From NCBI RefSeq assembly GCF_002258315.1, contig NZ_NOYD01000014.1:124001-188000 (forward strand): a DNA stretch of 64,000 bases, given 5' to 3'. Shown in pieces: positions 6,176 through 46,329 of this stretch. A model generated the notes under the pieces. That model was given only the letters and a program-made list of their open reading frames with translations, ran no database searches and was not told where the DNA came from. The position numbers were made by a program, and so were the translations under genes. Numbering within the stretch: position 1 is the first letter of the stretch; every line of letters begins with the position of its first letter. The stretch is from Rhodococcus sp. 06-462-5. Its GTDB lineage: Bacteria; Actinomycetota; Actinomycetes; Mycobacteriales; Mycobacteriaceae.

Positions 6176-6204
6176 GAAAACTAGTGCCAGGGATTCCCCG
6201 GTCG

Positions 6205-6717: not shown

Positions 6718-7039
6718 AACGCTTCCCCGGAGTCGTCACACGTTAGCACCCCGGTATCGGTCCCTCGTTCGACCGACAGTGCTTGACACATGACGTGGAT
6801 GTGGCACTAATAGGTGGTCGAGAATGACCGGAATGGGGGCTTCCGAAGAATTCGGCAACGCGGTGGACGCGTCTGGTTAATGCAGTAGAAACATGTAACG
6901 ACCTGCGGGTTCGTGTCGATCAACATATCGTTACCAAGTGACACAATAAGTACGAAAAGATAATCTTCACGACGGGGTGGCACGGAGCTGTGCCGATCAC
7001 GCAGGGGTTCGGCAACGCGTAAGTACCGAGGGGAAACAA
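6718..7039. promoter_or_regulatory. Divergent intergenic region with inverted repeat and boxes shared with the 38-kb wzz promoter
   Basis: This 322-base AT-richer stretch separates two divergent genes and holds no convincing gene. It contains GTAACGA (6895-6901) and its exact inverse TCGTTAC (6928-6934). ATGTAACGA (6893-6901), AGTGACAC (6937-6944) and AGTACGAAAA (6949-6958) recur in the same order upstream of the Wzz-kinase gene at 38092 (38026-38034, 38046-38053, 38063-38072). A GAGGGG ribosome site at 7029-7034 decides the GTG start at 7040. Confidence 0.5.
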
Positions 7040-8545
7040 GTGTCAGTCAGCGATCTGGAAGCGCAGAGTTCGGTTGTCTCGCGGCGTGACGCACGACGGT
7101 TGCGCAGATTTACATCGCGTCGTGAATGGGAGACGCACTACACCGAGGGACTCCGTGTCACCGACACGGTGGTCGTTCTCGGCGCGGTGACGGTTGCGCA
7201 GATCATCCGCTTCGGCGACATCGATTTTCGTGAACCGTGGTCCATCATCGGCTACTTCGGGATATCCGGAGTACTCGCAATTCTGTGGCTGGCGTTTCTC
7301 GCCATCTTCCGCACCCGCTCACCGCGGGTGATCGGCAACGGCTCGGAGGAGTACCGCCGCATCGTGTCGGCCACGTTCCGGCTCTTCGGAACCATCGCGA
7401 TCCTCTCCCTGTTGTTCCGTCTGGACATCGCCCGTCTGTATCTCGCGATCGCGCTGCCCGTCGGCCTGGTCGGACTTCTGCTGAGTCGGTGGGTATGGCG
7501 AAAAGTAGTGTCACGCAAGCGTGCTCGTGGCGGATACCAGACCTCGGTGCTCATCGTCGGCAGTCGGAGCTCGGCTCTGGCCATGGCCAAGTCGTTCGAG
7601 CGCTCTCCCGAGGCCGGCTACAGCGTGGTCGGCATCTGCCTACCCAACTACGAGCCCGGTAACGACACGTCCTTCACCATCGACGGCGTCGAGATTCCGG
7701 TGCTCGGTGACGAGCACAGTGTGGTCGAGGCCATCGAGACCTCCGGCGCAGATACGGTCGCCGTCACCGCCACCGAACACATCGGCCATCACGGACTGCG
7801 AAAGATGGTGTGGGACCTGGAGAAGAAGAAGGTCGACCTCGTCGTGTCGCCCGGAGTGGTGGACGTCGCGGGTCCGCGTCTGGTGATGCGTCCGGTGGCG
7901 AACTTTCCGCTCATCCATGTCGAGAAGCCGCAGTACAACGGCGCGAAGCGATTCGGCAAGACGGCGTTCGACTTCCTGTTCGCCGCCTCGATTCTGCTGC
8001 TGATTTCTCCGGTCCTGCTCACGCTCGCCGCAATCATCAAGCTCACCAGCAAGGGCGCGATCTTCTACAAGTCCGAGCGAATGGGTATCGACGGCAAGCC
8101 TTTCCAGATGATCAAGTTCCGCAGCATGGTGCAGGACGCAGACAAGCGAGTGCAGGAGCTGGCCGCCCTCAACGAAGGGGCAGGCGGGGTGTTGTTCAAG
8201 ATGCGAGACGACCCACGGGTCACCCGGGTGGGCAAGGTGATGCGCAAGTTCAGCCTCGACGAGCTGCCGCAGTTCGTCAACGTGCTCAAGCGCGAGATGA
8301 GTGTGGTGGGTCCGCGGCCGCCGCTGCGTAGCGAAGTGGAAACGTACGACGGTGAAGTGCGTCGTAGGCTGCTCGTCAAGCCCGGCATCACCGGGTTGTG
8401 GCAGGTGAGTGGCCGATCGGACCTGTCGTGGGAGGAGAGCGTTCGCCTCGATCTCTCGTACGTCGAGAACTGGTCCATGACAGGGGATCTGCTCATCATC
8501 GCCAAGACCGCGGTCGCAGTTCTCAAGAGTGACGGCGCGTACTAG
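7040..8545 (+). CDS. Initiating polyprenyl-phosphate sugar-phosphate transferase (PHPT), copy 1
   Basis: A 501-aa integral membrane enzyme that by family moves a hexose-1-phosphate from a UDP-sugar onto undecaprenyl phosphate, the first step of Wzy-dependent polysaccharide synthesis. The N-terminal third has four to five membrane helices, followed by a Rossmann-like cytoplasmic region (SVLIVGSRSSALAMAKSFE), another helix near residue 315, and the C-terminal bacterial sugar transferase domain. Landmarks of that domain are KSERMGIDGKPFQMIKFRSM, FSLDELPQFVNVLKREMS, VGPRPPL and KPGITGLWQVSGRS. GTG 7040 is chosen for its GAGGGG site; an earlier in-frame ATG at 6977 lacks one. It is closely similar to the copy at 10914, including the C-terminal DGAY. 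Sugar specificity cannot be read directly. Confidence 0.95.
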   Translation: MSVSDLEAQSSVVSRRDARRLRRFTSRREWETHYTEGLRVTDTVVVLGAVTVAQIIRFGDIDFREPWSIIGYFGISGVLAILWLAFLAIFRTRSPRVIGNGSEEYRRIVSATFRLFGTIAILSLLFRLDIARLYLAIALPVGLVGLLLSRWVWRKVVSRKRARGGYQTSVLIVGSRSSALAMAKSFERSPEAGYSVVGICLPNYEPGNDTSFTIDGVEIPVLGDEHSVVEAIETSGADTVAVTATEHIGHHGLRKMVWDLEKKKVDLVVSPGVVDVAGPRLVMRPVANFPLIHVEKPQYNGAKRFGKTAFDFLFAASILLLISPVLLTLAAIIKLTSKGAIFYKSERMGIDGKPFQMIKFRSMVQDADKRVQELAALNEGAGGVLFKMRDDPRVTRVGKVMRKFSLDELPQFVNVLKREMSVVGPRPPLRSEVETYDGEVRRRLLVKPGITGLWQVSGRSDLSWEESVRLDLSYVENWSMTGDLLIIAKTAVAVLKSDGAY

Positions 8546-8554
8546 TAGCGCCGA
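8534..8554 (+). terminator. Putative hairpin terminator after PHPT copy 1
   Basis: A perfect 6-bp stem, CGGCGC (8534-8539) and GCGCCG (8549-8554), encloses a 9-base loop and overlaps the stop codon of the sugar transferase. No T-tract follows, which is common in actinobacteria. It may end or attenuate transcription before the small gene at 8598. Confidence 0.4.
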
Positions 8555-8597
8555 CGCTCACCCTGCGGACGGTCGGTTTTGTTCGTACCATGACGCA

Positions 8598-8897
8598 ATG
8601 ACAACTGTTTCGGAGAACGGACGTGGCATGACCATGGCGCAGAATACGTTTCACGATTTCTTGGCCGATCGCGTCGACGTGATCGCCAAGGTTCATCTGA
8701 ACAGGTCCACCTCGCTGCACGCGGTGATCTCCGACAGCGTCGATGCCTACACCTCGGCGTTCGCGGAGTATCACGGCACGGATGCACCCCTGGATCTACT
8801 CGCTGCTGAGGTCCGCTCGGAACTGAGCGATTTCATCCACCGCTGCGCCGAGGCCGTCGAAGAACCGGAGAACCCGCAGTTTCCCGTTCGTCGCTGA
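8598..8897 (+). CDS. Small hypothetical protein (about 99 aa)
   Basis: A soluble, acidic, mostly helical small protein with no signal peptide or membrane segment. I do not recognise a family. It contains FLADRVDVIAKVHLNRS and a Leu-rich helix ending ELSDFIHRCAEAVEEPE. ATG 8598 is used; ATG 8628 is an alternative that would remove ten residues. It lies between the first initiating transferase and UDP-glucose dehydrogenase on the same strand, but a hairpin precedes it and about 190 bases separate it from the next gene, so operon membership is uncertain. Codon use looks like its neighbours, which supports a real gene. Confidence 0.55.
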   Translation: MTTVSENGRGMTMAQNTFHDFLADRVDVIAKVHLNRSTSLHAVISDSVDAYTSAFAEYHGTDAPLDLLAAEVRSELSDFIHRCAEAVEEPENPQFPVRR

Positions 8898-9028
8898 GAG
8901 ACCTTCGCTTTGCCGGTTGTTCAACTGGTCCTGTGACCGCAGTCTCCTGGGTGACGGTCCTGATCGCCTGTGTTTACTATTCCCGTATGTGCGCGTGACC
9001 TGAAGGCGATGTCCTCCAGGCGCTTACT

Positions 9029-9043
9029 GTGACGGGTCGTCAC
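9029..9043. promoter_or_regulatory. Inverted repeat GTGACG-GGT-CGTCAC upstream of ugd
   Basis: A perfect 6-bp inverted repeat with a 3-base centre lies 45 bases before the UDP-glucose dehydrogenase start. It shares the GTGAC/GTCAC half-sites seen upstream of other polysaccharide genes here (10634, 37920). It could be an operator or a short leader hairpin; no consensus promoter is obvious. Confidence 0.35.
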
Positions 9044-9087
9044 GGGCTCTTTTCGAGTACGCCATTGTTCAGAACGACTGACGGGGA

Positions 9088-10416
9088 ATGGAACAAATGC
9101 GAATCACAGTGTTCGGTACCGGTTACCTCGGTGCCACTCACGCGGCATGTATGGCCGAGCTCGGCCACGAGGTTCTGGGCGTGGACGTGGACCCGGCCAA
9201 GCTCGCGAAGCTCGAAGCCGGCGAGGTCCCGTTCTGGGAGCCCGGTCTCGAAGAGGTGCTGCAGCGCAACATCGCGGCCGGACGTCTGCGGTTCACCGCG
9301 TCGTACCAGGAAGCCGCGGACTTCGCGGAGGTGCACTTTCTCGGTGTCGGTACGCCCCAGAAGAAGGGGGAGTTCGCGGCCGACATGAAGTTCGTGGACT
9401 CGGTCATCGAGACTCTCGCGCCATTGCTCACCAAGCCCGCCGTGATCTTCGGTAAGTCGACCGTCCCCGTGGGTACGGCGGAGCGGCTCGGCAAGATAGC
9501 TCGCGACCTCGCACCTGCCGGTGACGACGTCGAGGTCGCGTGGAACCCCGAGTTCTTGCGCGAGGGCTTCGCTGTCAAGGACACACTGCATCCCGACCGC
9601 TTGGTGCTGGGCGTCGATCGTTCCCGTCCGGGCCGTGCCGAGGAGCTGGCTCGCGAGGTCTACGCGCAGCTTCTCGACGAGAAGATCCCGTTCCTGGTCA
9701 CCGATCTGGCGACGGCCGAGCTGGTCAAGGCATCGGCCAACGCATTCCTGGCCACCAAGATCTCGTTCATCAACGCCATCGCGGAGGTGTGTGAGGCCGC
9801 GGGAGCCGACGTCACCGTGCTCGCCGACGCCATCGGCCACGACGAGCGCATCGGCCGCAAGTTCCTCAATGCCGGCATCGGCTTCGGCGGTGGCTGCCTG
9901 CCCAAGGACATCCGGGCGTTCATGGCGCGGGCCGGCGAACTGGGCGCTGACCAGGCACTGACGTTCCTGCGTGAGGTCGACAACATCAATATGCGACGCC
10001 GCACGCGCATGGTCGAGTTGGCGCGTGAGGCCTGCGGGTCTCTACTCGGTGCACGGGTCGCGGTCCTGGGCGCGGCCTTTAAGCCCGATTCGGACGACGT
10101 TCGTGATTCACCGGCCCTGAACGTGGCCGGGCAGATCCAGCTCCAGGGTGCAGCGGTCAACGTGTACGACCCGAAGGCCATGGAGAACTCCCGCGCACTG
10201 TTCCCCACCCTGACCTACAGCAGTTCCGCGCTCGAAGCGTGCGAGGGCGCTGACGTGGTGCTGGTGCTGACGGAGTGGAAGGAATTCAAGGCACTTACTC
10301 CGCAGGACCTGGAGGGTGCGGTGCGCAGCAGGACGTTGATCGACGGGCGCAACTGTCTGGACCCGGAACAGTGGCGTGCGGCGGGTTGGAACTACCGCGG
10401 GTTGGGCCGTCCCTGA
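9088..10416 (+). CDS. ugd: UDP-glucose 6-dehydrogenase
   Basis: A 442-aa cytoplasmic enzyme that oxidises UDP-glucose to UDP-glucuronate with two NAD+. The N-terminal Rossmann fold shows FGTGYLGATHAACMAELGHE; a central helical domain has VAWNPEFLREGFAV; and the catalytic Cys lies in GIGFGGGCLPKDIRAF (Cys270 from the 9088 start). The C-terminal UDP-binding domain has VLGAAFKPDSDDVRDSPALN. Length is normal for the family. ATG 9088 and ATG 9097 are both possible; GGGGAATGG lies upstream of the second. It supplies glucuronate for the exopolysaccharide and substrate for the epimerase-like enzyme at 17096. It follows the PHPT gene but has its own 190-base upstream region. Confidence 0.96.
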   Translation: MEQMRITVFGTGYLGATHAACMAELGHEVLGVDVDPAKLAKLEAGEVPFWEPGLEEVLQRNIAAGRLRFTASYQEAADFAEVHFLGVGTPQKKGEFAADMKFVDSVIETLAPLLTKPAVIFGKSTVPVGTAERLGKIARDLAPAGDDVEVAWNPEFLREGFAVKDTLHPDRLVLGVDRSRPGRAEELAREVYAQLLDEKIPFLVTDLATAELVKASANAFLATKISFINAIAEVCEAAGADVTVLADAIGHDERIGRKFLNAGIGFGGGCLPKDIRAFMARAGELGADQALTFLREVDNINMRRRTRMVELAREACGSLLGARVAVLGAAFKPDSDDVRDSPALNVAGQIQLQGAAVNVYDPKAMENSRALFPTLTYSSSALEACEGADVVLVLTEWKEFKALTPQDLEGAVRSRTLIDGRNCLDPEQWRAAGWNYRGLGRP

Positions 10417-22963: not shown

Positions 22964-23653
22964 TCACCCCAATACACCGATGACCGCACCCGCAATGGTT
23001 CGGTGACCCGCGTCGTTGGGATGCAGACCGTCGGGGTCCATCATGTCCGGATGATCGGCGAGTGGCTCACCGATGTCGAGATATCGGGCCTCCGCGCTTG
23101 CGGTTGCGGCCTTCACTCCGTCGATCAGAATCGCGAAGTCCGCCGGGGGCTCGGTCGAGTCCCAGATCGGGCTGGTGACTATCACCTTCGTGTTCGGTGC
23201 CACAGCTTTGATGGCCTCGAACAGCGATAAAGCAACAGCCCCGGTGACGCTCGAGGTGCCGGCCTCGTAATCGTTGCGGCCGCCGGACACGATGACGATG
23301 TCCGGTTGGGCTGCGGCAACCACATCCAGCTTGATCGCGTAGTCCGTCTTCTGGCCGAGATAGCTCGTGGTGTAGCCGGAGCCACCTTCGGCGAGGTTGA
23401 GCTCGGACCATCCCATCGCCGCCGATACGAGCGTCGTCCACCGCTTCCCGTTGGAGGAGGCGCCGGTGCCCTTGCTGTACGAGTCACCCAGAAACACGAC
23501 CACGGGCACCGAATCCGGGATGAACCGTGTGGGAGCTGGTGCTGCCTGTGGAGGCTCCGACCGTGAGCCGATCTGCCATCCGAGAATTCCGCTGAACGCC
23601 ACGATCAGAACCGAGACAGCGATGTAGATGAGCACCGCCCTCCTCGCCTTCAT
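22964..23653 (-). CDS. Membrane-anchored SGNH/GDSL hydrolase
   Basis: A 229-aa protein with an N-terminal membrane helix (about residues 7-27), a Pro-rich linker and an extracytoplasmic SGNH domain. Block I is VVFLGDSYSKGTG with the nucleophile Ser58, the Asn block is GGRNDYEAG, and the C-terminal DGLHPNDAGH supplies Asp208 and His211. All catalytic residues are therefore present. It is the last gene of a seven-gene minus-strand operon and starts in an ATGA overlap with the lipoprotein gene before it. It probably removes or transfers acyl groups on a surface glycan; the substrate is not known. Confidence 0.9.
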   Translation of the reverse strand: MKARRAVLIYIAVSVLIVAFSGILGWQIGSRSEPPQAAPAPTRFIPDSVPVVVFLGDSYSKGTGASSNGKRWTTLVSAAMGWSELNLAEGGSGYTTSYLGQKTDYAIKLDVVAAAQPDIVIVSGGRNDYEAGTSSVTGAVALSLFEAIKAVAPNTKVIVTSPIWDSTEPPADFAILIDGVKAATASAEARYLDIGEPLADHPDMMDPDGLHPNDAGHRTIAGAVIGVLG

Positions 23654-29408: not shown

Positions 29409-30809
29409 TCAGTGCCGGTTGGTGCTGATGGTCGGTGGTGTTGCAGCGCGAGCCGGGGTACGGCCCGGCTCGAAGTCGTATCCGTAGCGGTACTCGGACT
29501 TCCTCGACGTCGGAACCACCGACATGACGACCCCGAGAAGTGGAGCCCCGATCGTCTCCAGATTCGCCGCGGTCCTACTCACCTCGTCGCGCCGAGTGAA
29601 GCCGTAGCGAGTGACGAGGATCGTGCCGTCGCACTGGGTTGCCAGAGTTGCGGCATCGGTGACCGGCAGCACCGGAGGGGAATCGACCACCACGTAATCG
29701 AATGCGCGCTTGAGCTCGTGCAGGAGTGATTGCGCGGCAGTGCTTCCCAGCAGCTCGCTCGGGTTCGGTGGGGCCGGTCCCGCGCCCAGAGCCCACAGAT
29801 TGTTGAACGTGGTGGTCTGAACGACCTCGTCCACCGTGGCCTCGTGCGAGAGTACCGAGCTGACTCCCACCGATCCAACGATGTCGAGGTACTCCGAGAT
29901 GCGTGGCCTCCGCAGATCGGCGTCCACCAGAACCACCCTGTTGCCCACCTCGGCCAGAGACAGCGCGAGATTGACGGCGGTGACCGATTTTCCCTCTCCA
30001 GCAATGGAACTGGTGATCAGTAGCAAGCGGGGAGGGTTGTCGACGGCGAGGAACTTCAGATTCATCCGCAATTCCCGGTACGCCTCGGCAACGGGGGCAG
30101 TGGACCGGCCGAAGTCGATGGCCGCAGTGTCTCGCACTTTCTTGGCGTACGGGATGGTGCCCACCAATACGCTGTCGGTCAGCTCCTGCAGTTCACCGGC
30201 CTTCTTCACCGTGTTGTCGAGCCTGTCCCGGACGAGAGCTCCGGCGATACCGACCAACAGCCCGATCGTCATACCCAGGATCACGTTGCGCAGCTTCTTC
30301 GGTGTCACCGGTGCCGTCGGGGTCTCGGCCGCTTCGGCTACGGCCACCGACGCGGACGCAGTCCCCCCGTCGGCCGGGGTCTCCAACTCACTGACGAGTG
30401 CGGGGAACTGCTCTCCGAGTGCGTTGGCGATGTCGCGGGCACGCAGTGGCGACGTATCGAGCACGGACGCGTCCAACAGCACCGAGTTGGGTGTGGATGT
30501 TGCCTCGATCTGCGCACTGAGTTCGTCTGCGCCGATGGGAAGCGACAACTGATCGATGACTCGCTGCGCCAGGGTGCGTCCGGTGAGGAGTTCGGCATAG
30601 GAAACAACGCGCTGCTGCGAGGCCAAATTGCTTTGATAAACGTCACTGGCGGTGACAGCCGTTGTCGAGACGAAAAAGCGAGTGGTGGCCTGATAGGCGG
30701 GCGTGGACAGAAGCGAGAACAGCACGGCCGCAGTGGTTCCGACGATCGTTGTCGCCACGATGGTCAGCCATCGCGCGCGGAGCGCCGCCGCATACTCGCG
30801 AATCATCAC
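29409..30809 (-). CDS. Wzz-BY-kinase: polysaccharide co-polymerase fused to tyrosine autokinase
   Basis: A 466-aa two-domain protein. The Wzz part has helix 1 (about residues 14-36), an extracytoplasmic domain starting TPAYQATTRFFVSTTA with QRVVSYAELL, and helix 2 near residues 175-193. The cytoplasmic BY-kinase part has Walker A SSIAGEGKSVTAVNLALSL, Walker A' VLVDADLRRPR and Walker B VVVDSPPVLPVTDA. The C-terminal YRYGYDF supplies three tyrosines for autophosphorylation, though the cluster is short. The GTG at 30809 follows GAGGAGG by six bases; ATG 30806 is equivalent. It heads the seven-gene minus-strand operon and should set chain length of that polymer. Confidence 0.95.
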   Translation of the reverse strand: MMIREYAAALRARWLTIVATTIVGTTAAVLFSLLSTPAYQATTRFFVSTTAVTASDVYQSNLASQQRVVSYAELLTGRTLAQRVIDQLSLPIGADELSAQIEATSTPNSVLLDASVLDTSPLRARDIANALGEQFPALVSELETPADGGTASASVAVAEAAETPTAPVTPKKLRNVILGMTIGLLVGIAGALVRDRLDNTVKKAGELQELTDSVLVGTIPYAKKVRDTAAIDFGRSTAPVAEAYRELRMNLKFLAVDNPPRLLLITSSIAGEGKSVTAVNLALSLAEVGNRVVLVDADLRRPRISEYLDIVGSVGVSSVLSHEATVDEVVQTTTFNNLWALGAGPAPPNPSELLGSTAAQSLLHELKRAFDYVVVDSPPVLPVTDAATLATQCDGTILVTRYGFTRRDEVSRTAANLETIGAPLLGVVMSVVPTSRKSEYRYGYDFEPGRTPARAATPPTISTNRH

Positions 30810-37629: not shown

Positions 37630-37919
37630 GTCAGCGCACTCGGTCCGAGCTGGATTGTCCCCAGCTGTCGATCCTGGTCGATATCGCATCGCGTGGCGTG
37701 TCGTGGCGCCGCTTCGAGCGCGGCATCCGATCCGGGCGAGAAAGGCGGCTGCAGGGGTGAGTCGACCGGCAGTTCGAGACCGGTGGGGTGTTCAGGATCA
37801 CTTAACGTGACGTGACGGGTGCGTGCTTGTCTATCGTCGGTGCACAGGCGTCTGTCACCGTGGTGGAGGAGCTCAGCCGAACAACGAAGTTCGCGCACAG
37901 AATCAGGCCCGGTTCCTCG

Positions 37920-37931
37920 GTGACACGTCAC
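37920..37931. promoter_or_regulatory. Inverted repeat GTGAC-AC-GTCAC
   Basis: Five-base inverted arms with a two-base centre, 160 bases upstream of the Wzz-kinase start. The same GTGAC-NN-GTCAC core forms the middle of the palindrome at 10632-10647 before the second sugar transferase gene. Confidence 0.35.
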
Positions 37932-38091
37932 AACGGGGAATTGACTTGATTGTGCTCGCATATCGAACGAATGAATTGACTCGCGTTGCGCCCGGGTCCA
38001 TCCGGTGCACGGAATGCGACCAGCTATGTAACGATTGAGCCACGCAGTGACACGTCGCGAGTAGTACGAAAACAAATTAGGAGCGCGAAGC

Positions 38092-39714
38092 ATGGAGATA
38101 CAGGATTATCTGAGAATCCTGAAGGCGAGGTGGATCATCATCGCCGTCACCATGATCGTCGCCATCTTGGGTGCCCTGGGCGCGTCCCTGTTGACGACGC
38201 CGCTCTACGAGTCGAGCGCACGGATGTTCGTCTCCACCTCCGGTGGAACGTCGGTGAGTGAGACGTACCAGGGCAACTTGTTCTCGCAGCAGCGAGTGGC
38301 GTCCTACTCGGAGTTGGTGACCAGCGAGGCACTGGCAGCCCGAGTGCTCGACGTCCTTCCCCTCGGATTGACGCCGTCGCAGTTGGCCGCGAAGGTCAAG
38401 GCGTCGTCGACTCCCGACACCGTTCTGTTCGACATCACCGTCACCGACCCGTCCCCCGCGGTGGCTCGCGACATCGCCAACGCGATGGCCTCGGAGCTGA
38501 CATCACAGGTACGCGACCTCGAAACCCCCGAGGACGGCGGAACCCCGTCGGCGGGAGTGAAGACCTTCCAGCAGGCCGATGCGTCCGCATCGCCGGTCAG
38601 CCCGAACACCAAGCGAAACCTGGCCCTCGGTGCGGCCGTCGGCCTGTTGCTCGGTATCGCACTTGCCGTATTGCGTGATCGTCTGGACAACACCATCAAG
38701 GACCGTCGCGAGATCGAGTCGATCTCCGGCAAGGCGTTGGTGGGCACCATCCCGTTCGACAAGGAGCGCAAGACGCATCCGGCCGTCGACTTCCAGGATC
38801 TTGCCCAGTCGTCCAGTGCCGAGGCCTTCCGTGAGCTCCGCACCAACCTGCAGTTCCTCGAAGTCGACCATCCTCCGCGCGTCATCGTCGTCACCAGCGC
38901 GATTCCGAGTGAAGGCAAAACCACAACAGCGGTGAACTTGGCAATCTCGCTCGCCGAGGCCGGCCACCACGTCGCCCTTGTCGAGGGCGATCTGCGTCGG
39001 CCCCGCGTCTCGAAGTATCTGGGTCTCATCGGTTCGGTCGGCCTCAGCACCGTCCTTGCCGGACAGGCGAAGGTCGACGAGGTGCTTCAGCCGACCAGGT
39101 ACGAGGGACTGCAAGCCATGGCGTCCGGCCCGATTCCGCCGAACCCGTCCGAGCTCCTGGGCTCGGAGGCATCTCGGGCGCTGTTGGTGGAACTCCGTTC
39201 CAAGTTCGACTACGTCATCATCGACGGCGCACCTCTGTTGCCGGTCACCGACTCGGCAGTCCTGACGACGCACGCCGACGGTGCTCTCCTGGTCACCCGA
39301 TACGGGCACACCAAGAGCAACGAATTGTCCAGGGCCATTGGCAACTTGGAAACGATTGGTGCGCACGTCCTCGGTGTGGTGCTGGCATTGACGCCCTCCA
39401 AGAAGGGCGACATGTACAGCTACTCGTACAACTACACCGCCGATACCAATCTGCCCAAGCAGGTGACACCGCCGGTTCCCGCGCCTGCACCTCAGGCTCC
39501 GGTCGCAGCGCCGGCTCCTCCGACCCCCGCAGCGGCACCTGCGCCGCAACCGACCTCGGCGCGCCCCGGATCGACCCAGACCGCATCGGCTGCACCGAGC
39601 GCAGCCGCACGTACTGCAGCTCCCGCCGCCGCGCCGTACTCGCGGGCACGGCGTCCCGAGGCACCCGGTGATCTGCCCAGAAACGGCGTCGAGAACCCCC
39701 GTCTGAGGAAATAG
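38092..39714 (+). CDS. Wzz-BY-kinase with long Pro/Ala-rich tail
   Basis: A 540-aa co-polymerase/tyrosine autokinase. The Wzz part has helix 1 (about residues 14-36), TPLYESSARMFVSTSG, QQRVASYSELVTSEAL, DPSPAVARDIANAMASEL and helix 2 near residues 175-195. The kinase part has Walker A AIPSEGKTTTAVNLAISLAE, Walker A' ALVEGDLRRPR (Glu-Gly in place of the more usual Asp-Ala) and Walker B VIIDGAPLLPVTDS. The tyrosine cluster MYSYSYNY follows at about residue 440, then an unusual tail of about 90 residues rich in Pro and Ala, possibly a flexible spacer. ATG 38092 follows TTAGGAG. A strong hairpin lies just after the stop. Confidence 0.95.
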   Translation: MEIQDYLRILKARWIIIAVTMIVAILGALGASLLTTPLYESSARMFVSTSGGTSVSETYQGNLFSQQRVASYSELVTSEALAARVLDVLPLGLTPSQLAAKVKASSTPDTVLFDITVTDPSPAVARDIANAMASELTSQVRDLETPEDGGTPSAGVKTFQQADASASPVSPNTKRNLALGAAVGLLLGIALAVLRDRLDNTIKDRREIESISGKALVGTIPFDKERKTHPAVDFQDLAQSSSAEAFRELRTNLQFLEVDHPPRVIVVTSAIPSEGKTTTAVNLAISLAEAGHHVALVEGDLRRPRVSKYLGLIGSVGLSTVLAGQAKVDEVLQPTRYEGLQAMASGPIPPNPSELLGSEASRALLVELRSKFDYVIIDGAPLLPVTDSAVLTTHADGALLVTRYGHTKSNELSRAIGNLETIGAHVLGVVLALTPSKKGDMYSYSYNYTADTNLPKQVTPPVPAPAPQAPVAAPAPPTPAAAPAPQPTSARPGSTQTASAAPSAAARTAAPAAAPYSRARRPEAPGDLPRNGVENPRLRK

Positions 39715-39717
39715 GCG

Positions 39718-39749
39718 CTGGGCGATCGGAATCCATCACGATCGCCCAG
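39718..39749. terminator. Bidirectional hairpin terminator after the Wzz-kinase gene
   Basis: CTGGGCGATCG (39718-39728) and its exact inverse CGATCGCCCAG (39739-39749) form a perfect 11-bp stem with a 10-base loop, three bases past the Wzz-kinase stop. It also covers the end of the convergent holin-like gene, so it can serve both strands. It marks the left edge of the phage-like cassette. Confidence 0.7.
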
Positions 39750-39927
39750 AGCTTCGCTTGGGCCGTCCACTCGCGCCGACGACTACGCCCGCGAGGGTCA
39801 TCGTGGCGAGTACGACCGGTGTCGTGACATTCGGTACCTGAGCGGCGATGGCGACAGCGAACAGTATCTGAATCACGGCCGTCACCTTGTCGCTGATGCT
39901 GGGTTCGATCGGCTTCTTCTGGCTCAT
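39736..39927 (-). CDS. Holin-like small membrane protein
   Basis: A 63-aa protein with a soluble N-terminus (MSQKKPIEPSISDK), two short hydrophobic helices (VTAVIQILFAVAIAAQ and VVLATMTLAGVVVGAS) joined by a tight turn, and a basic tail. This is the size and topology of actinophage holins, though such small proteins have little diagnostic sequence. Its start has a good upstream GGAG (CAGGAGCCACTC). It lies at the left end of a group of phage-like genes and points the opposite way from the LamG-like and hydrolase genes. A plain two-helix membrane protein is the alternative. Confidence 0.6.
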   Translation of the reverse strand: MSQKKPIEPSISDKVTAVIQILFAVAIAAQVPNVTTPVVLATMTLAGVVVGASGRPKRSSGRS

Positions 39928-40022
39928 GAGTGGCTCCTGACCTGTGGAATGTGGATTACCAGGCCGAAGCTACACCCTGCGTGCGCCATGAAAGGTGTTC
40001 GGTTACAGCGCATTCGGGAGTT

Positions 40023-40184
40023 GTGTGCCGCAGGGAAGAGGCTCTCGACACGCGTTATGCGCCCTTCACGCTGCGCGCTCGCGTCGTAGATCAGGCCGGT
40101 GAGCCGATCCCCACCAAGGCCGCAGACATCGTCCTCGACGCCAACGGCGAAATCGACGACATCATCATCAGGACGGTGGTCTGA
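40023..40184 (+). CDS. Small phage-like protein
   Basis: A protein of about 53 aa ending TKAADIVLDANGEIDDIIIR plus TVV. The C-terminal part is compact and acidic, with alternating hydrophobic residues, as in small structural-module proteins next to phage tail genes; I do not recognise a named family. The start is uncertain: GTG 40023 is used, but no good ribosome site lies before it, and the gene could be the stump of a longer one truncated at the cassette edge. The next gene's ATG begins two bases after its stop, so the two are likely co-expressed. Confidence 0.4.
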   Translation: MCRREEALDTRYAPFTLRARVVDQAGEPIPTKAADIVLDANGEIDDIIIRTVV

Positions 40185-40185
40185 C

Positions 40186-40916
40186 ATGGCGTACATGCGC
40201 GACAAGCGCGGGTCCCGGCTCGACCACCTCGACCCCCGCCGCGACCTCCCATCGTCCCTGCTCGCCTGGTACGACCCGTCGATTCTCGCGATCGCGTCGG
40301 GCGCGACAGTGCCCTTCCTGCCCGACATGTCGGGCAACGGACACCACCTCACTCAGGTCACTGCGGCACGTCGACCAACCGTCGCGACCAATCCCGCAGG
40401 CAAGAAGTACCTTGCGTGCGGTGCGAACGCCTACCTGACTCGCTCCCTGCTCGGCAACGGCGACTGGCTGCAGCCGAGTGCCGGTATCGCACAGCCGCTC
40501 ACCTTCATCGCCGTCGCACGGGCAACCGTGGCCGCACCGAACGGCACCCCCCCGGGTACCTCATCAGCGGCACCGCGCAGGACTGCACCGTCGCCCTGGA
40601 CAGCAACCTCGGCTGCGTGCAGATCCGGGCTGCATCGAACTCCAGCGGTGGACCCGCAGCCGACGACGGGCAGTGGCACATCTTCGCGGCGATCCTCACT
40701 CCACTCGGCAACGCCACGCTCATCGACGGCTATCTCGTCGCGTCGTCCACGACCCAGACGCACGGCGCGAACACGCTGCGCGGACTGGCGCTCGGGTCGA
40801 ACGGAGGCGGTACCGCGCCGTGGGTGGGTGACATTGCCGAAGCGATGGTCTTCAACTCCGCGCTCACCTTCGAGCAGGTCGCACTCATCACAACCGCATT
40901 GGGGGAGAAGTGGTAG
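40186..40916 (+). pseudogene. LamG/concanavalin-like (phage tail-type) protein, frameshifted at a C7 tract
   Basis: Two frames make one protein. The first runs from ATG 40186 (MAYMRDKRGSRLDHLDP, then LAWYDPSILAIASG and PFLPDMSGNGHHLTQV) to the run of seven C at 40547-40553. The continuation GYLISGTAQDCTVALDSN to ALTFEQVALITTALGEKW lies in another frame, as if one C were missing. The pattern LAWYDPS, DMSGNGHHL, DGQWHIFAAIL and GDIAEAMVFN is that of concanavalin/LamG-like domains of phage tail and bacterial surface proteins. The cause may be a real frameshift, slippage-based phase variation or a sequencing error. Its stop overlaps the hydrolase gene start. Confidence 0.7.
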
Positions 40917-41677
40917 CCACCGCAACACCGCAGCAGATGATCACATTCGAGCAGACCGTCCAGCCGAACGGTCAGGCCTGCCGCATCTGGGAACCCCCGG
41001 TGCTACTGCCCGACGCGCCCCTGATCATCGTGTCCCATCAGTACACCGGCAACGAGCAGATTGCCCCGAGCGCAGCGGGCTACACCTACGCCGTGATCAC
41101 CGCCTGCATCGCCGAAGGGTGGCGGGTGGCCGCGTCCAACATGCACGCGAACTCGTGGGGAAACCCGACTGCCGTCAACGACAACGTCGATCTGTACTCG
41201 ATGATGAACACCCGCCAGGCCGTGCCGAAGGTCCTCATGTGGGGTCAGTCGATGGGTGGCCTCGCATCGGCACTAGCTGTCCCGGACGGCCGCATCCCCG
41301 TGGTCGGTGTAGCGCTCATCGACGCCGTGACCAACCTCGCGAAGGCATACGGACCGAGCGCCGGATTCGCCGACTTCTCGGGCACTATCAAGACTGCGTA
41401 CGGCATCGCCTCGGATGGCTCGGACTACGCGGCGAAAACGGCGGGATCAGACCCGAACTTACTGGCCGCGTCCGCCTTCACTTCCAAGCGCTGGCGGTTC
41501 TACCAGTCGACCTCAGACACCACGCAGGTCGAGAAGGCGACGAACGCTGACGCATTCAGAACGAAGATCGCGGCGGCACCGGAGTCCGGAATGGTCACCC
41601 ACCGCGGCGGGCACCTCGCGAACTACTGCACCCACCCGGCTGACTTCGTCGCGTTCGCGAAACGCTGCTTCGCGTAG
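40910..41677 (+). CDS. Alpha/beta-hydrolase in phage-like cassette
   Basis: A 255-aa alpha/beta-hydrolase without signal peptide. The nucleophile elbow is LMWGQSMGGLASAL (G-x-S-x-G); a probable oxyanion/first strand is LIIVSHQYTGNEQ, and the catalytic His is in VTHRGGHLANYC. The GTG at 40910 follows GGGGGAG and overlaps the end of the LamG-like gene. The link to a LamG-like gene and a nearby holin-like gene suggests a phage tail- or lysis-associated esterase acting on the mycolate envelope or on polysaccharide, analogous in idea to LysB, but it lacks diagnostic LysB motifs. It meets the SGNH gene tail to tail with no gap. Confidence 0.8.
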   Translation: MVATATPQQMITFEQTVQPNGQACRIWEPPVLLPDAPLIIVSHQYTGNEQIAPSAAGYTYAVITACIAEGWRVAASNMHANSWGNPTAVNDNVDLYSMMNTRQAVPKVLMWGQSMGGLASALAVPDGRIPVVGVALIDAVTNLAKAYGPSAGFADFSGTIKTAYGIASDGSDYAAKTAGSDPNLLAASAFTSKRWRFYQSTSDTTQVEKATNADAFRTKIAAAPESGMVTHRGGHLANYCTHPADFVAFAKRCFA

Positions 41678-42448
41678 CTATTCCGAGCTGTCTACCGGCC
41701 GATTCTCGATCGCGGTCTGGATCTGCGGCGCGAGCAGGTCAGCCATGTACTGGTGACCTTCATCGGTCGGCAGCGAGCCATCCTGTCCGATGAACTTCGC
41801 GTTCTCGCCGCGAAACCAGCCCTCCGCGATTGGGTCCACGAATGTGGCACCCGCGGCTACTGCGTTCCGTTGCAACACGTCACGAACTGCGAGAATGTCA
41901 CCGGGCACCTCGGGGTCCGGGGATGGCGGGCCGACCACGACGAGTGAGGCTTCCGGCGAACGTGACCGGATCAGTTCGTAGAGGTTGCGGCTGGTGGTGT
42001 CGACGTCCATGCCGCGGTCGTACCCTCCACCGAACACGACAACGAGATCGACGAGCGGCCTCGGGGTGTTAGCGAACAGGTCTTGGAACGTGTAGCCGGT
42101 CGGACCTCGCCGCGTGTACCCGGTGCTGAGTGACGCTTGACTCGTGAACGTGAATCGGTACGCGCCCTCGTTCAATCCGATGTTCGCGCGCTGCACCCAG
42201 TTCTGGCGTTTCAGCCCACCTTGCAGCGAACCGGCCGTGTACGAGTCCCCGATGACGAAGACGGATGCTGCAGGTTTCGGCGGTGGCGCGGTGTAAATCG
42301 CCGCTGCGCTCTGCGCCTCGTTGGTCGTGCGGCTGAACTGGCCGTTCTGCCAGACCACTCCCGCGACGACTGCGATCAGGGTGAAGGCCACCAGTAGTCC
42401 GACTGCGACTTTGCTGCGGTCGTACGCACGCGGGTCCGTGTTTGCCAT
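41678..42448 (-). CDS. Membrane-anchored SGNH/GDSL-like hydrolase in phage-like cassette
   Basis: A 256-aa protein with an N-terminal membrane helix (about residues 13-33), a Pro-rich spacer (APPPKPAAS) and an SGNH domain with VFVIGDSYTAG (Ser69). The middle block VVVFGGGYDRGMD lacks the usual Asn, and the C-terminal block DGSLPTDEGHQYMAD lacks the usual D-x-x-H-P, although D-E-G-H could serve. Activity is therefore uncertain. The ATG at 42448 lies only seven bases after a 19-base sequence repeated at 43456, which may be a promoter. It resembles the anchored SGNH protein at 22964 in layout. Confidence 0.82.
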   Translation of the reverse strand: MANTDPRAYDRSKVAVGLLVAFTLIAVVAGVVWQNGQFSRTTNEAQSAAAIYTAPPPKPAASVFVIGDSYTAGSLQGGLKRQNWVQRANIGLNEGAYRFTFTSQASLSTGYTRRGPTGYTFQDLFANTPRPLVDLVVVFGGGYDRGMDVDTTSRNLYELIRSRSPEASLVVVGPPSPDPEVPGDILAVRDVLQRNAVAAGATFVDPIAEGWFRGENAKFIGQDGSLPTDEGHQYMADLLAPQIQTAIENRPVDSSE

Positions 42449-42454
42449 GCGTGC

Positions 42455-42473
42455 ATCATGCCGTACCGCCCGG
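42455..42473. repeat. 19-base repeat, copy 1 (ATCATGCCGTACCGCCCGG)
   Basis: An identical 19-base sequence occurs at 43456-43474. Both copies lie upstream of minus-strand genes of the phage-like cassette, in the same orientation, 7 and 50 bases from the start codons. A shared promoter or operator, or a recombination scar, are the main options. Confidence 0.6.
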
Positions 42474-42533
42474 TCTGGCCGCTCGGCAAGCTGCCGTGTC
42501 CCCAGCGGCTTTCGAGCTGTGCAGATGATCGCG

Positions 42534-43406
42534 TCAATCCTCCGCAGGGAACACGAAGTGCGAGAGAAATCCACCAACCGGCCGACCGAGAGACGCCCCG
42601 GGTAGGGGAGGTGATTCACGGGCGAACCGCTCAACGGCCGACCCCACCATTGCGAACCCGGCAGCCGGAACGGGTGGCTCGAACGGCCAGGTGAACTGTT
42701 GCGGTTGAGGCCAAAGCATCAGCAGTTGACTCGTTGTCGTGGACTGGATTTCCGAGGTCATGAGATCGACGACCACCTTTGCCGTGGACGTGCCGTACGT
42801 CGAAGCGCAGCCAATGGTCGAGAGGAAGACGTCCCCGATCATCAGGTTGTGTTGCTGCAGGTGCAGATTGGGCTCAGCTCCCAACTTGGGCTTCGTGCCG
42901 GTTTCGGACAACAGGGACTGGCTCCACCAGGTATTTTCGGCTAGGCCATTCGAGCTAGTTCGTCCAAGAAAAACCCGCCAGTGGTCGGGAGGTCGGCGGT
43001 TCGCGAAGACGTGCTTCAGATCAGATTGTTGAACCGCGTGATGCGGATCGGCGAAGGCCCTCATCATGCAGGTTTTCACCGCCCAGAGCGCGAGCAATTG
43101 AGCAGAACCTGCGTCCACGAGTGTCTGTTTGCCGTGCACCATAGGCCACAACGTCGGCTCTGTAGCAACCTCAAGGTCATTCATCCAGCCGTTGTTGCAC
43201 TGCGCGCAGACCCGTTTCACCTGTGTTTCTTCAAACGGGGTCTTCCCCCGGAGGTTCCTTGCATCTCCGGACATTAAGTTCTTATGTCTGTAGTTCGTGA
43301 CCTCGTCTGTATGCAACCGTCTGTACGCATTCCGAAAAACGTGCTCTTTCGTCACGGGCCGGTTGCCGCAGAACACGCAGGATCGACCGGCGTTCGCCTC
43401 TGTCAT
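42534..43406 (-). CDS. HNH-type zinc-finger protein, putative endonuclease
   Basis: A 290-aa soluble protein. The N-terminus has CVFCGNRPVTKEHVFRNAYR and then RVCAQCNNGWMNDLE: two C-x2-C knuckles around a T-K-E-H element, the pattern of a widespread HNH-like family. The remaining 200 residues are unassigned, with several Trp-rich segments. ATG 43406 is chosen because it directly precedes the first knuckle; a longer frame upstream has no support. It sits at the right end of the phage-like cassette and has a copy of the 19-base repeat 50 bases upstream. A role as a mobile-element or defence nuclease is inference. Confidence 0.75.
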   Translation of the reverse strand: MTEANAGRSCVFCGNRPVTKEHVFRNAYRRLHTDEVTNYRHKNLMSGDARNLRGKTPFEETQVKRVCAQCNNGWMNDLEVATEPTLWPMVHGKQTLVDAGSAQLLALWAVKTCMMRAFADPHHAVQQSDLKHVFANRRPPDHWRVFLGRTSSNGLAENTWWSQSLLSETGTKPKLGAEPNLHLQQHNLMIGDVFLSTIGCASTYGTSTAKVVVDLMTSEIQSTTTSQLLMLWPQPQQFTWPFEPPVPAAGFAMVGSAVERFARESPPLPGASLGRPVGGFLSHFVFPAED

Positions 43407-43455
43407 GAGCGTGCTTCCGCAACGTTGGGATGCTGACCGATTCGCATGTGCAGCA

Positions 43456-43474
43456 ATCATGCCGTACCGCCCGG
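43456..43474. repeat. 19-base repeat, copy 2
   Basis: Identical to 42455-42473. It lies 50 bases upstream of the HNH-like gene start on the minus strand and near the right edge of the cassette. Similarity between the two sites ends soon outside the 19 bases. Confidence 0.6.
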
Positions 43475-43660
43475 CGCTGCCTCGCCTGAAACGGGTGCAT
43501 AACGCGAGATATTTGTGCGAACAAGCCGGTCGATTCCATAGCCTCGAGACGCGAAAGTTCATTCGATTGAACGACGTTACGGGTGTCAAAGCCGGCCAGG
43601 TCGGTGCGTCGAGGAGTTCTCATAGCGTGACGCGAGACTGGGAGATGGGGAGGGATCGGG

Positions 43661-44272
43661 ATGTCGGTGCGTAGCTTCGTGAAGACCGTGATCGCGGGCT
43701 GGCACGTCGTTGCCGTGTCCATCGCGCTGTCGATGGCGACGGCATTCGGAATCACCTCGCTGATCACACCGGTGTACGAATCACGCACTCAGATGTTCGT
43801 CTCCACCTCGGGGTCCTCGACCGTGAGCGATACGTACGTGGGGAACTTGTTCGTGGGGCAGGCAGTGTCGTCGTATGCAGGACTGGTGACCAACGAGGCT
43901 CTGGCCTCGAAAGTGATCGCCGATCTCGCACTCGATCTCACTCCGGCGGAGTTGATCGAGAAGGTGACAACGTCGTCGTCGCCGGACACCGTCGTGTTCG
44001 ATATCGTCGCCACCGATACTTCGCCGGAGCTCGCGCGCGATATTGCGAACACCATGGCCACAGAATTGAGCGCCCTGGTTGCGGAGCTCAACGCTCCCGG
44101 AGACGGCGAGCCGCCCTCGGTGGCGTTGAAGATGTACAGCCAGGCCGAAGCGTCGGATGCACCGATCAGCCCGAACACCCGGGCCTACTTTGTGGGCGGA
44201 GCAGCAGTGGGGTTGCTCATCGGAACTGCGTTGGTGTTTGCCCGTCACCGCTCGAATGGGACCGGACACTGA
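43661..44272 (+). CDS. Wzz-type chain-length determinant, kinase-less
   Basis: A 203-aa Wzz protein with helix 1 (about residues 13-35), ITPVYESRTQMFVSTSG, AVSSYAGLVTNEALASKVI, DTSPELARDIANTMATEL, PISPNTRAYFVGGAAVGLL (helix 2) and a very short tail. It is clearly related to the Wzz half of the protein at 38092 but stops right after helix 2, so it has no Walker motifs or tyrosines. It may assist a BY-kinase encoded elsewhere or be a truncated descendant. ATG 43661 follows GGGAGGGATCGGG. GTTAC and GTGAC boxes at 43576 and 43629 resemble those upstream of the relic and of the 38092 gene. Confidence 0.93.
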   Translation: MSVRSFVKTVIAGWHVVAVSIALSMATAFGITSLITPVYESRTQMFVSTSGSSTVSDTYVGNLFVGQAVSSYAGLVTNEALASKVIADLALDLTPAELIEKVTTSSSPDTVVFDIVATDTSPELARDIANTMATELSALVAELNAPGDGEPPSVALKMYSQAEASDAPISPNTRAYFVGGAAVGLLIGTALVFARHRSNGTGH

Positions 44273-44347: not shown

Positions 44348-46123
44348 TCAGCACTGCAGAACGTCGATGCTCACCGTCGGCTGATCCACCAGAGGCTGCA
44401 CGGGTACCGTCGCCTCGCCGGGAGCGGAAGGCTCCTCGAGTTCCCACGTCACCGTCTGTGACTTGCCCGGCGGAATGGTGAGGTAAGCAGCCTGCACCGG
44501 CCGGCCGAGCTCGGTGCCGGCCTGGATGGAGAATCCCGTGATGCCGTTGACCTTCATGGACGTGATCTTCGCGCCCTGAGTGCCGTACAGGTAGACGATC
44601 GATTCGTTGGTGCCGTACTCCGCCGTCGGCTGGAACGTGCTTGCCACGTAGGGCGTGAGGCCGTTCGGATTCACGTTGTTGGTGAGTGTGGCCGTCACGG
44701 TCGACTTGCGGGTACCCGCCGTGCAGGATTCAGCCGAATACGTGATGTCGCGCGTCAGGTAGTAATCGAGCTTGTTACCGCCGGCGTTGTTGACCACCAC
44801 ATTGGCGTACGGGGCCGGGCTGTCCGGCAATACGTGACCCACCTTGGTACCGGCCAGAATTGCCTGCTCGGCCGGATCAGCGCTCCACACCGAGATGCGA
44901 CCCTCGCTGCCGGCGCGGCCCACCGCGTCGAGCAGCGACCTGGTGGGTGCTGCGCCCGTGGTCATCTTCTGCACCACCGCCGCGGCAATCTCCTGGAGAT
45001 ACGCCTTGCGAGCCAACTGGTCGTCGCCGAACCTGGCATACGCCGTGCTGAGAGTTATTTCGACGACGTTCTCGGCAGTGATCTGCTCACCGTCGGCCAA
45101 CGCAACCGGGCCGGTGGCATCGAGGATGTAGCTCAACGCGATCGGGTCGGTGGCGATGGCACCGTTGAGCACCTCACCCGTCTGCTCCGTCCACATCGAC
45201 GACCAGATCTGGCCGGCATACGGAAAGTGCGGGCTCGCATTCGAGTTACGGAAGTCGATGGTCGTCCTCCGAGGAGCCCATAGCGCGTTGTATTCGGGGC
45301 CCAGATCGATGGGCTGCTCGGCAAACTCGAGTTCGTTGTTGCTGCCGAGAGTATCGACGCGGGCCGTGCCGTTCTCGGCCCGAATGATGCCGTAGCCACC
45401 GAGCAACCCACCGGTGCCCCGAGCCTCCGCGTTGGTCTGGAACGCGAGAAAGTAACTGCGCGGGCCGTTGTCGCCGAGCATCGACGGCAGCAGTTCACTG
45501 GCGATCCGGGTGTTGGTGAGCAGATTCGCGAGTTCGTGAGTCTGGTCGATTAGTGACGTGCGAGCCTCGTCCACCACGCCGAGGAAGGCGGGCTCATCCA
45601 CCTGCTGGGCCCGCTCACTGAGCTCGTCGGCTGCGGCGGAGGTCTGCTGCAGTACCGGCTGCGCGTCCCGCAGGGCCGCGGTGTCCACCTTGCCGCCGCC
45701 CTCCACGAGGCTGCTCGGATTCAAGCTCGCACCCGCGGCCGACGCGGGGGCGAGCACGTCCACGGCCAGTCCCTGCACCACGTCGCTGATCTGAGCTACC
45801 GATTTCAGGGGACTACCGAGATATGGAACGGCTTTGGCGATGGAAAACGGTATGGACGTCGTTGCCGATACAGCGTCGTCCGCGGATTCGGAGGCGCGAG
45901 CCGCGGCGGCCTCGGCTCCGGCCGAGTCGCCGTCGAGCAATGCGTCCTTGGCCTGTGTGGCCGAGTCGCGGGTGGCAGTCAAACTCGACTGCGCGGAATA
46001 GGCTTCGTAACCAAGCCAGACCGCAAAAGCTATGACGATGACCAGAAATACCCCCACCGTGATGAGAATCGGCCGCTTTCTGCCCGATTTCCGGCCCCGG
46101 GTATCGGTGGAACTGGTTGCCAT
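44348..46123 (-). CDS. DUF4012 membrane-anchored extracytoplasmic protein
   Basis: A 591-aa protein with a basic N-terminus (RGRKSGRKRP), one membrane helix at about residues 20-40, an Ala/Ser-rich helical region (about 45-95) that may form a coiled coil, and a large extracytoplasmic DUF4012 domain. Typical blocks are RSYFLAFQTNAEARGTGGL, GGYGIIRAENG, DFRNSNASPHFPYAGQIWS and YILDATGPVALADGEQIT. Its function is unknown; members recur in actinobacterial exopolysaccharide loci. ATG 46123 is preferred for its clean basic-plus-helix start over an upstream GTG at 46219. It is divergent from the NRPS gene and convergent with the Wzz gene. Confidence 0.9.
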   Translation of the reverse strand: MATSSTDTRGRKSGRKRPILITVGVFLVIVIAFAVWLGYEAYSAQSSLTATRDSATQAKDALLDGDSAGAEAAAARASESADDAVSATTSIPFSIAKAVPYLGSPLKSVAQISDVVQGLAVDVLAPASAAGASLNPSSLVEGGGKVDTAALRDAQPVLQQTSAAADELSERAQQVDEPAFLGVVDEARTSLIDQTHELANLLTNTRIASELLPSMLGDNGPRSYFLAFQTNAEARGTGGLLGGYGIIRAENGTARVDTLGSNNELEFAEQPIDLGPEYNALWAPRRTTIDFRNSNASPHFPYAGQIWSSMWTEQTGEVLNGAIATDPIALSYILDATGPVALADGEQITAENVVEITLSTAYARFGDDQLARKAYLQEIAAAVVQKMTTGAAPTRSLLDAVGRAGSEGRISVWSADPAEQAILAGTKVGHVLPDSPAPYANVVVNNAGGNKLDYYLTRDITYSAESCTAGTRKSTVTATLTNNVNPNGLTPYVASTFQPTAEYGTNESIVYLYGTQGAKITSMKVNGITGFSIQAGTELGRPVQAAYLTIPPGKSQTVTWELEEPSAPGEATVPVQPLVDQPTVSIDVLQC

Positions 46124-46329
46124 CGTCGGTGGCCTCTCGGTCGAGGAAATGTATTCGAGTGCACAGCCTAAAGGGGAGGAGTCGATCTGGCGTACCTGTC
46201 TTCGATCCAGGTAGAGCATTCACAGTGTGTCGACTAGTTTGTAGTGGGCGATGAAAAGATCGACGTCGATGAGCGGTGCCGCCGGCCGAATCGAAGCCGT
46301 CAGGGTGCGTGCGTTGAGGAGGTCGGGGA
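46124..46329. promoter_or_regulatory. Divergent promoter region of DUF4012 and NRPS genes
   Basis: A 206-base divergent region. A perfect 12-base palindrome, ATCGACGTCGAT, lies at 46259-46270, 60 bases before the NRPS start. GAGGAGGT at 46315-46322 is a strong ribosome site and fixes the NRPS start at GTG 46330. No iron box is visible here. Confidence 0.5.

Follow-up and report, generated by a model that had tools for sequence, protein, structure and literature searches.

What is the block of phage-like genes that separates two wzz genes in Rhodococcus sp. 06-462-5, and how did it come to lie there? We analyzed a 64,000-nucleotide stretch of the 5.76-Mb genome (G000:C55:124001-188000, hereafter the window), in which a sequence-only reading had proposed a phage-like cassette running from a holin-like to an HNH-like gene and had interpreted it as either a prophage remnant or a domesticated release/lysis unit. 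The cassette is very probably the remnant of a temperate Rhodococcus siphophage, made up of the end of its tail operon and an adjoining convergent cargo slot, in a hotspot between the host genes wzzK and p623. The evidence comprises homology and gene order in common with phages, the two junctions, relatives in which the cassette is absent, a similarly built cassette of unrelated content at this spot in another species, and broken tail genes. The extent of the cassette is corrected to about 40041-43480 (3.4 kb, between wzzK and wzz2); the phage origin and the LamG, hydrolase, and SGNH genes of the earlier proposal stand, whereas the holin-like gene is not part of the cassette and the boundaries differ. 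The features are given below by window position and strand.

38092-39714, plus: wzzK, a Wzz and tyrosine-kinase protein, host flank (Pfam Wzz, 3.1e-10; AAA_31, 1.1e-9)
39736-39927, minus: small membrane open reading frame (ORF), the former "holin," a host gene outside the cassette with homologues beside wzzK
40041-40066, plus: left junction (T-site), where host and phage homology overlap; contains GTTATGCGCCCTT and codes ALDTRYAP
40041-40184, plus: phage minor tail gene by homology, 3' end only, truncated on its 5' side
40186-40916, plus: LamG-type tail gene, frameshifted, both halves matching phrog_10356
40910-41677, plus: alpha/beta-hydrolase, putative tail esterase (phrog_10356)
41678-42448, minus: SGNH protein with an N-terminal hydrophobic stretch, in the convergent cargo position (Pfam Lipase_GDSL_2, 1e-9)
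42455-42473, minus: start-associated element, copy 1, 19 bp, exact repeat
42534-43406, minus: HNH-like CxxC/CxxCNNGWM protein, putative accessory cargo, with homologues in family genomes
43456-43474, minus: start-associated element, copy 2, exact repeat, right edge of the cassette
43489-43512, plus: right junction (A-site) AAACGGGTGCATAACGCGAGATAT, then host sequence; related sites in relatives G023, G015, and G022
43661-44272, plus: wzz2, host flank (Pfam Wzz, 4.3e-8)
44348-46219, minus: p623, a 623-aa host protein and right anchor, present after wzzK at 89 to 96% identity in 9 of 36 relatives

The genes were compared with 50,697 phage records and with PHROG profiles. The 852-aa profile phrog_10356 (virion structural protein) matches the two LamG halves, which were searched separately, and the hydrolase at successive positions (5.8e-9, 1.1e-10, and 9.8e-46, respectively). 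The LamG-like protein of the sequence-only reading is borne out by a Laminin_G_3 match (1.8e-9) in its second half only, but its ORF is broken by a frameshift inside a run of seven C residues at 40547-40553, where mutation and sequencing error are indistinguishable from the sequence. Likewise, the small tail-module gene does have tail homology (phrog_35351, 7e-7) but only a 3' fragment of it is left, joined to the host sequence at about 40041-40066. The closest phage seen, IMG/VR contig IMGVR_UViG_2643221954_000001 (L120), has a tail gene (7013-7564) that is 91% identical to this fragment over 46 aa, with 84% DNA identity over 183 bp from window position 40041; in Gordonia phage Bakery, a 64-bp DNA match extends across the end of minor tail gene 36, the product of which (gp36) is 52% identical to the fragment over 33 aa. 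Hydrolase relatives occur in eight of the phage records at 1e-5, representing four Arthrobacter phages with two records each (46% identity in ArV2 and 42% in Faja, compared with 51% in L120), and the residues assigned by eye as its triad, Ser114, Asp203, and His235, are invariant in all six aligned sequences. The gene is present in one of 37 genus genomes, the window's own, and its Pfam match (Hydrolase_4, 9.4e-4) lies under the family cut-off. SGNH relatives occur in six phage records, all of them Gordonia phages, and in two of 72,556 plasmid records. The comparison with actinophages that the earlier reading had recommended showed homologues of the hydrolase, SGNH, LamG, and tail fragment; protein searches of viral_contigs with the hydrolase, SGNH, and HNH-like proteins and of genome_contigs with the hydrolase gave no match.

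The order of the genes also follows that of phages. Faja gp30-gp31-gp32 are separate genes in the same order as in the window (tail fragment, 39% to gp30 over 41 aa; LamG, 37% to gp31; hydrolase), whereas LamG and hydrolase are fused in ArV2 gp24 (annotated tail fiber; 37 to 38% to LamG), and the likeness of ArV2 gp23 to the tail fragment was seen by eye only. Neither phage has a gene annotated as esterase or SGNH downstream, unlike the window. In the Gordonia phages Matteo, Budski, Eyes, and DirtyBoi, however, the gene for an SGNH esterase of 256 aa with an N-terminal hydrophobic stretch lies convergently behind the last tail gene, at a distance of 2 bases, much as in the window, where the SGNH and hydrolase stop codons are adjacent (41677/41678). 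L120 combines these features, with the tail gene followed by a 574-aa LamG and hydrolase protein and a convergent SGNH gene (32% to the window SGNH), and its upstream region holds endolysin and tail genes. In the window, the cargo is convergent with the tail operon, abuts it, and has its own start signal, which is the trait of a moron slot. At the level of sequence, these comparisons confirm the cassette as phage derived, consisting of the predicted 3' end of a siphophage tail operon and two convergent cargo genes. The earlier statement that integrase, capsid, and portal genes are missing holds for the seven ORFs scanned, and the prophage-remnant reading gains from the colinear phage homologues together with the relatives that have no insert at this place. 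As a separate observation, the convergent gene after the tail hydrolase in Arthrobacter phage Seahorse (L087, 1082-3990) encodes a lipoprotein-like alpha/beta-hydrolase that shares homology with the tail esterase (30% identity across 216 aa), so that tail enzyme and cargo belong to one family there.

On the left, phage homology begins at 40041 and host homology continues to 40066, so that 26 bases match both host and phage; this overlap contains GTTATG-GCCCTT in the codons for ALDTRYAP. In G023, DNA homology is unbroken from 37761 to 40066, across the small ORF at 39736-39927 that had been taken for a holin. That ORF has no match in the phage records at E values up to 0.1 and a best PHROG match of only 0.21, and its homologues (47 to 66%) adjoin wzzK in 6 of 36 relatives (G008, G009, G016, G022, G023, and G026); it is therefore assigned by sequence comparison to the host. 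On the right, host similarity returns at 43487-43492 (BLAST), or perhaps at 43475 by eye, just past the second element copy. Base composition was rejected as evidence for the cassette, its G+C content (63.5%; 58.4% for the HNH gene) being set against flanks of 64.2 and 63.0%. The window holds at least four Wzz-family copies, further Wzz-type genes lying at 29409-30809 (minus) and 826-1584 (plus).

The stretch downstream of the wzzK-like gene, which itself has 73 to 90% DNA identity to relatives over most of its length, was compared in 36 relatives (shortened by contig ends in G018 and G031). Ten loci are comparable, namely, the window and the nine relatives with p623 at 89% identity or more; G006, G007, and G035 (49 to 63%) were left out. 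Four of the ten (G003, G008, G022, and G023) contain no sizeable insert, and the check for empty sites proposed with the sequence-only reading came out in its favor, with no insert at the same place in G015, G023, G008, and G022. Thus, the matches were not confined to chromosomal nonphage loci, nor is the cassette at this place in all relatives. Phage tail material at the locus is clear in the window and in Rhodococcus sp. 14-1411-2a (G026) and probable in G016; G009 (SGNH) and KRD162 (G030) have cargo-type genes with no recognized tail material, and G011 has a different ORF. In G015 and G024, wzz2 is present and no p623 was seen in the compared stretch; SDR-like and TetR-like ORFs (by eye) lie between wzzK and wzz2 in G024. 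In 14-1411-2a, the host sequence ends at ...GACGCACGTTATGCCCCC, which reads DARYAP, the same tail codons (D-x-R-Y-A-P) as at the window junction, and is followed by a minor tail gene of 500 aa (phrog_25765, 1.9e-44) and then by an SGNH gene in convergent orientation that has an exact copy of the 19-bp element; the DNA of this cassette is unlike that of the window except in the flanks and the element. In G016, the site is followed by LDTRYAPVSG... and then by a Wzy_C gene (2.1e-14). Two side observations concern this locus. In KRD162 (L165, G030:C19:19145-27000, 673-5044), it forms a cluster of coat-modifying genes, with acyltransferase 3, an SGNH protein that has GDD for GDS, a hexapeptide-like ORF (by eye), and Wzy_C. 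In G023 (L042, reverse-complement 7438-7557 and 7929-9782), a partial second p623 3' end (80% over 40 aa) lies beside the full gene and may be a recombination scar.

Related prophages carry comparable material. The KRD162 and G015 prophages have common backbone DNA (identity of 88% toward the tail genes and of 78% and 86% toward the integrase), whereas the tail-end/cargo segment between the backbone parts is not common to them. The cargo is Wzy_C in the G015 prophage, a hexapeptide acyltransferase in KRD162, and SGNH in L120; a methyltransferase-like cargo ORF of viral contig L121 was named by eye only, with no PHROG match better than 0.25. Over prophages and locus cassettes, the cargo thus includes Wzy_C, SGNH, and hexapeptide and type 3 acyltransferases. 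The sequence-only reading had seen a hint of exchange between phage and polysaccharide genes in the likeness of the cassette SGNH to one in the second polysaccharide operon (22967-23653, minus). That likeness exists (26 to 27% identity), but it is weak, the two proteins fall in different clades, and we rejected it as evidence of exchange; the idea itself is favored by other evidence at the locus, namely, the unrelated cassette of the same build in another species and the cargo genes of the Wzy_C, SGNH, and acyltransferase kinds that prophages and this locus carry. These data suggest that viruses feed surface-coat genes into this spot; on the best reading, it is a hotspot within a capsule locus at which one phage group leaves surface-modification genes from its tail-end/cargo slot.

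Besides its low identity to the Gordonia phage SGNH proteins (29 to 30%), the window SGNH is without the catalytic His and Asn. Ser69 (GDS) is kept, but GGGYD (140-144) replaces the GSRND or close form of most relatives, and DGSLP (223-227) stands where relatives have DxxHP. With these motifs in place of those for the oxyanion Asn and the catalytic His, the protein is predicted to be probably catalytically inactive. Of 11 aligned SGNH proteins, 3 are without one or more of Ser, Asn, and His, namely, the window SGNH (Asn and His), the copy at the KRD162 locus (all three), and that of G299 (His). The HNH-like protein, proposed earlier from its letters, has a single profile match (phrog_38451, 3.3e-6); it has no Pfam, NCBIfam, or PADLOC family, and its EH and CNN pattern was seen by eye only. 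Among 400 other family genomes, 10 contain homologues, as do 10 of 72,556 plasmids, and two of the five chromosomal contexts lie beside large ORFs resembling type I restriction-modification genes (by eye). AF2 single-sequence models were too poor for use (pLDDT of 32 for HNH and 57 for SGNH).

Both cargo genes are preceded by a 19-bp start-associated element that is new here. The exact repeat CCGGGCGGTACGGCATGAT (minus strand) lies 6 nt before the SGNH ATG and 49 nt before the HNH ATG; the whole genome contains these two copies and no other at up to 2 mismatches, and the ORF nearest to the second copy has only 14 aa. In viral contigs and in genome_contigs (84,980 species), exact copies were found in L120 and L121 and in Rhodococcus KRD162 and 14-1411-2a. 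The genome_contigs matches number five, two in these Rhodococcus places and three probably due to chance; the latter (two Streptomyces and one Planctomycetota, L125-L127) have no start codon 6 to 8 nt after the element, look like chance for that reason, and stand outside the 17-locus count below. A match in viral contig L122 was also set aside as apparent chance within a coding sequence, and a 30-nt query containing the element gave only chance-level matches in phages (E about 8). In 17 loci, picked for the spacing script after earlier results, the core TACGGCATGAT is present at 12 places, and ATG or GTG follows 6 to 8 nt downstream in 12 of 12 (phages, prophages, and host loci); the ORF that follows has 200 aa or more at eight of these places. 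L121 has two core copies, each ahead of its own ORF, which parallels the two copies of the window, and a 24-bp context of the element before the window SGNH is the same in L120 and L121. The cassette has 75 17-mers in common with L120, L121, L123, and L151, compared with a mean of 0.04 (maximum, 1) in 100 first-order Markov resamples; L120 accounts for 51 of these, with a contribution from its tail-gene homology. As side observations, one-mismatch copies lie near site-like sequence at two other chromosomal places (L154, G019:C36, about 5023-5090; L158, G022:C15, about 4707-5000), that of G019 near an ORF resembling UDP-glucose dehydrogenase (by eye).

In position, the element is similar to the SAS and ESAS of cluster K mycobacteriophages, which are described as short conserved sequences 3 to 9 nt before start codons, some ESAS having an inverted repeat and a putative promoter upstream (PMC3203893, PMC11373665). 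SAS is the 13-bp GGGATAGGAGCCC with many copies per genome, whereas the window element has 19 bp, a different sequence, and one or two copies per locus at cassette edges; it is hence of the same kind but not a member.

How the segment reached the wzz locus was weighed on the sequences at its ends. The inverted half-site GGGYGCATAAC bounds the insert in the window (40049-, 43488+) and the same segment in L120 (7435-, 10455+), so that the ends carry inverted, not direct, copies. The A-site equals a site in the G015 prophage at 22 of 24 bases; G015 and G022, which have no insert, keep single related sites at the locus (GGGCGAATAACGCGAG and GGGCGTATAACGCGAG), G023 has two inverted sites about 120 bp apart, and G008 has a near-palindrome, while T-sites keep one arm only. 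Attachment sites of tyrosine recombinases have inverted core arms on either side of a 6- to 8-bp spacer. In the G015 prophage (L155, G015:C1:574000-584000, 5077-5104 and 5114-6373), the perfect palindrome CGGGCGCATAACGCGAGTTATGCGCCCG (11-6-11 layout) is flanked by the Wzy_C cargo gene and a gene for a Fic-domain protein, and an integrase gene lies at a distance of 2.1 kb. It is possible, though tentative, that a recombinase of the phage group recognizes the inverted T- and A-sites and moves the segment as a unit between phage and wzz locus. The left junctions of the window, 14-1411-2a, and probably G016 coincide in their tail codons. In five loci (G000, G008, G016, G023, and G026), the left flanks align up to the site and diverge just after it (by eye), the G015 row aligning poorly there. 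However, no recombinase was recognized in the cassette, the left and right spacers differ, no full attL/attR pair was recognized, and the palindrome could be regulatory, as in ESAS. L123 has both the DNA site and a tail motif reading ADTRYAP, but L121 has the element and neither site, and the tail gene of the G015 prophage encodes LDNRYAP without containing the DNA site. In addition, in two Rhodococcus phages, attP is reported to be immediately beside the integrase (PMC13313380). Pattern matches are also partly due to chance: an 18-mer search with 1 mismatch gave 19 matches in 16 of 37 genomes (7 exact) against 7 for the reversed pattern, and a 14-mer search with 1 mismatch in two whole genomes gave 15 against 8, so that single matches mean little (L147 and L148 looked unrelated by eye and were discarded), and the basis of the site claim is where the sites lie, at the ends of cassettes and within the tail genes of L120, the KRD162 prophage, and L149. 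An extension of this idea, in which the cassette is a discrete exchangeable unit, bounded by inverted sites (one in the receptor-binding tail gene codons ALDxRYAP and another beyond the cargo) that would also exist as a pair in host capsule loci, and swapped between phage tails and capsule loci by a phage integrase or host recombinase, is unlikely; if true, it would couple the receptor-binding end of a phage with a host gene altering that receptor.

Plain decay has a chance that falls only a little short of even. Here, an ancestral prophage would have been mostly deleted through chance microhomology (GTTATG-GCCCTT), later phages would have swapped content at common flanks through homologous recombination, and the hotspot would be inherited and no active site. 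The left junction does have microhomology to the phage tail gene, and the T-sites of G000, G016, and G023 have 'CTCGACAC-CGTTATG' and host flanks in common, as one old event would give; in the 14-1411-2a cassette, however, the tail gene is unrelated and the T-site is a variant, and in the KRD162 prophage and in L149, the site is located within the tail genes themselves. That the locus is a composite island, only its tail part being phage and the SGNH and HNH genes being added later from cellular polysaccharide or defense loci, is rather doubtful. The chromosomal or plasmid location of HNH relatives, the placement of the SGNH in a tree, and a 40% identical SGNH of G299 in an apparent polysaccharide locus (by eye) are in its favor, but the SGNH stop codon abuts that of the hydrolase, and the 24-bp element context before it recurs in L120 and L121. 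A domesticated phage-tail particle or release/lysis unit is very improbable and already contradicted. The hydrolase triad is intact, but no tape measure, tube, baseplate, lysin, endolysin, or other phage genes were recognized in the interval, the tail gene is truncated, LamG is frameshifted, and the SGNH has lost catalytic residues; with the holin a host gene, a holin/lysis cassette was rejected, and no lysis function would be expected.

Several observations weigh against a phage remnant carrying conversion cargo. In a tree of 18 sequences (including 11 of 19 fetched family loci), the window SGNH clusters with cellular enzymes of the Rv0518 family (98/97) and is separate from both the esterases of the Gordonia phages and the second SGNH of the window, so that it may have a cellular source; its branch is long and its placement unsure. 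The HNH-like protein has no match in the phage records, and the tail fragment alone matches none at 1e-5. Of 400 other family genomes, 33 contain distant hydrolase relatives (23 to 43% identity, E of 2e-18 or weaker), and two of their contexts viewed by eye appear nonphage. The tail scrap of G016 is weak (phrog, 0.012; KRD162 prophage, 45% over 31 aa, tblastn 0.006), and the cargo is taken for conversion genes from annotation only. For the siphophage remnant, the following course appears plausible. The tail esterase of the parent phage would have helped adsorption to the host coat, and the slot would carry lysogenic-conversion genes that are expressed in the lysogen and alter its surface polysaccharide; after insertion, only the cargo would have been kept beside host polysaccharide genes and expressed from its own elements. 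The present SGNH may be either decaying or retained as a binding protein; since it is predicted to be catalytically dead, its present role, if any, would be binding rather than ester hydrolysis. The HNH-like protein may be a defense-like passenger.

No description of phage tail cassettes at a Rhodococcus wzz locus was recognized in open-licence papers. The spot beside wzz holds phage-derived material in at least two species, with a cargo slot marked by the start-associated element, which provides a simple handle for finding such cargo and a concrete possible route for phage-driven diversification of actinobacterial capsule or exopolysaccharide loci. Because the tail esterase and surface-modifying cargo are neighbors, receptor recognition and receptor change could travel together. 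Prophage remnants are known to carry lysogenic-conversion morons beside tail genes. The cassette is similar to them in its leftover tail genes, its accessory genes with their own start signals, and the surface-modifying cargo of its relatives; unlike them, it recurs in type at one capsule/exopolysaccharide spot, where at least two species have the left junction at identical tail codon positions. O-antigen conversion prophages, such as the P22 and Sf phages, carry Wzy or acetyltransferase genes, that is, polymerase and acyltransferase genes of the cargo-slot kind. They act from the prophage, whereas the cargo of the window sits beside the host wzz genes.

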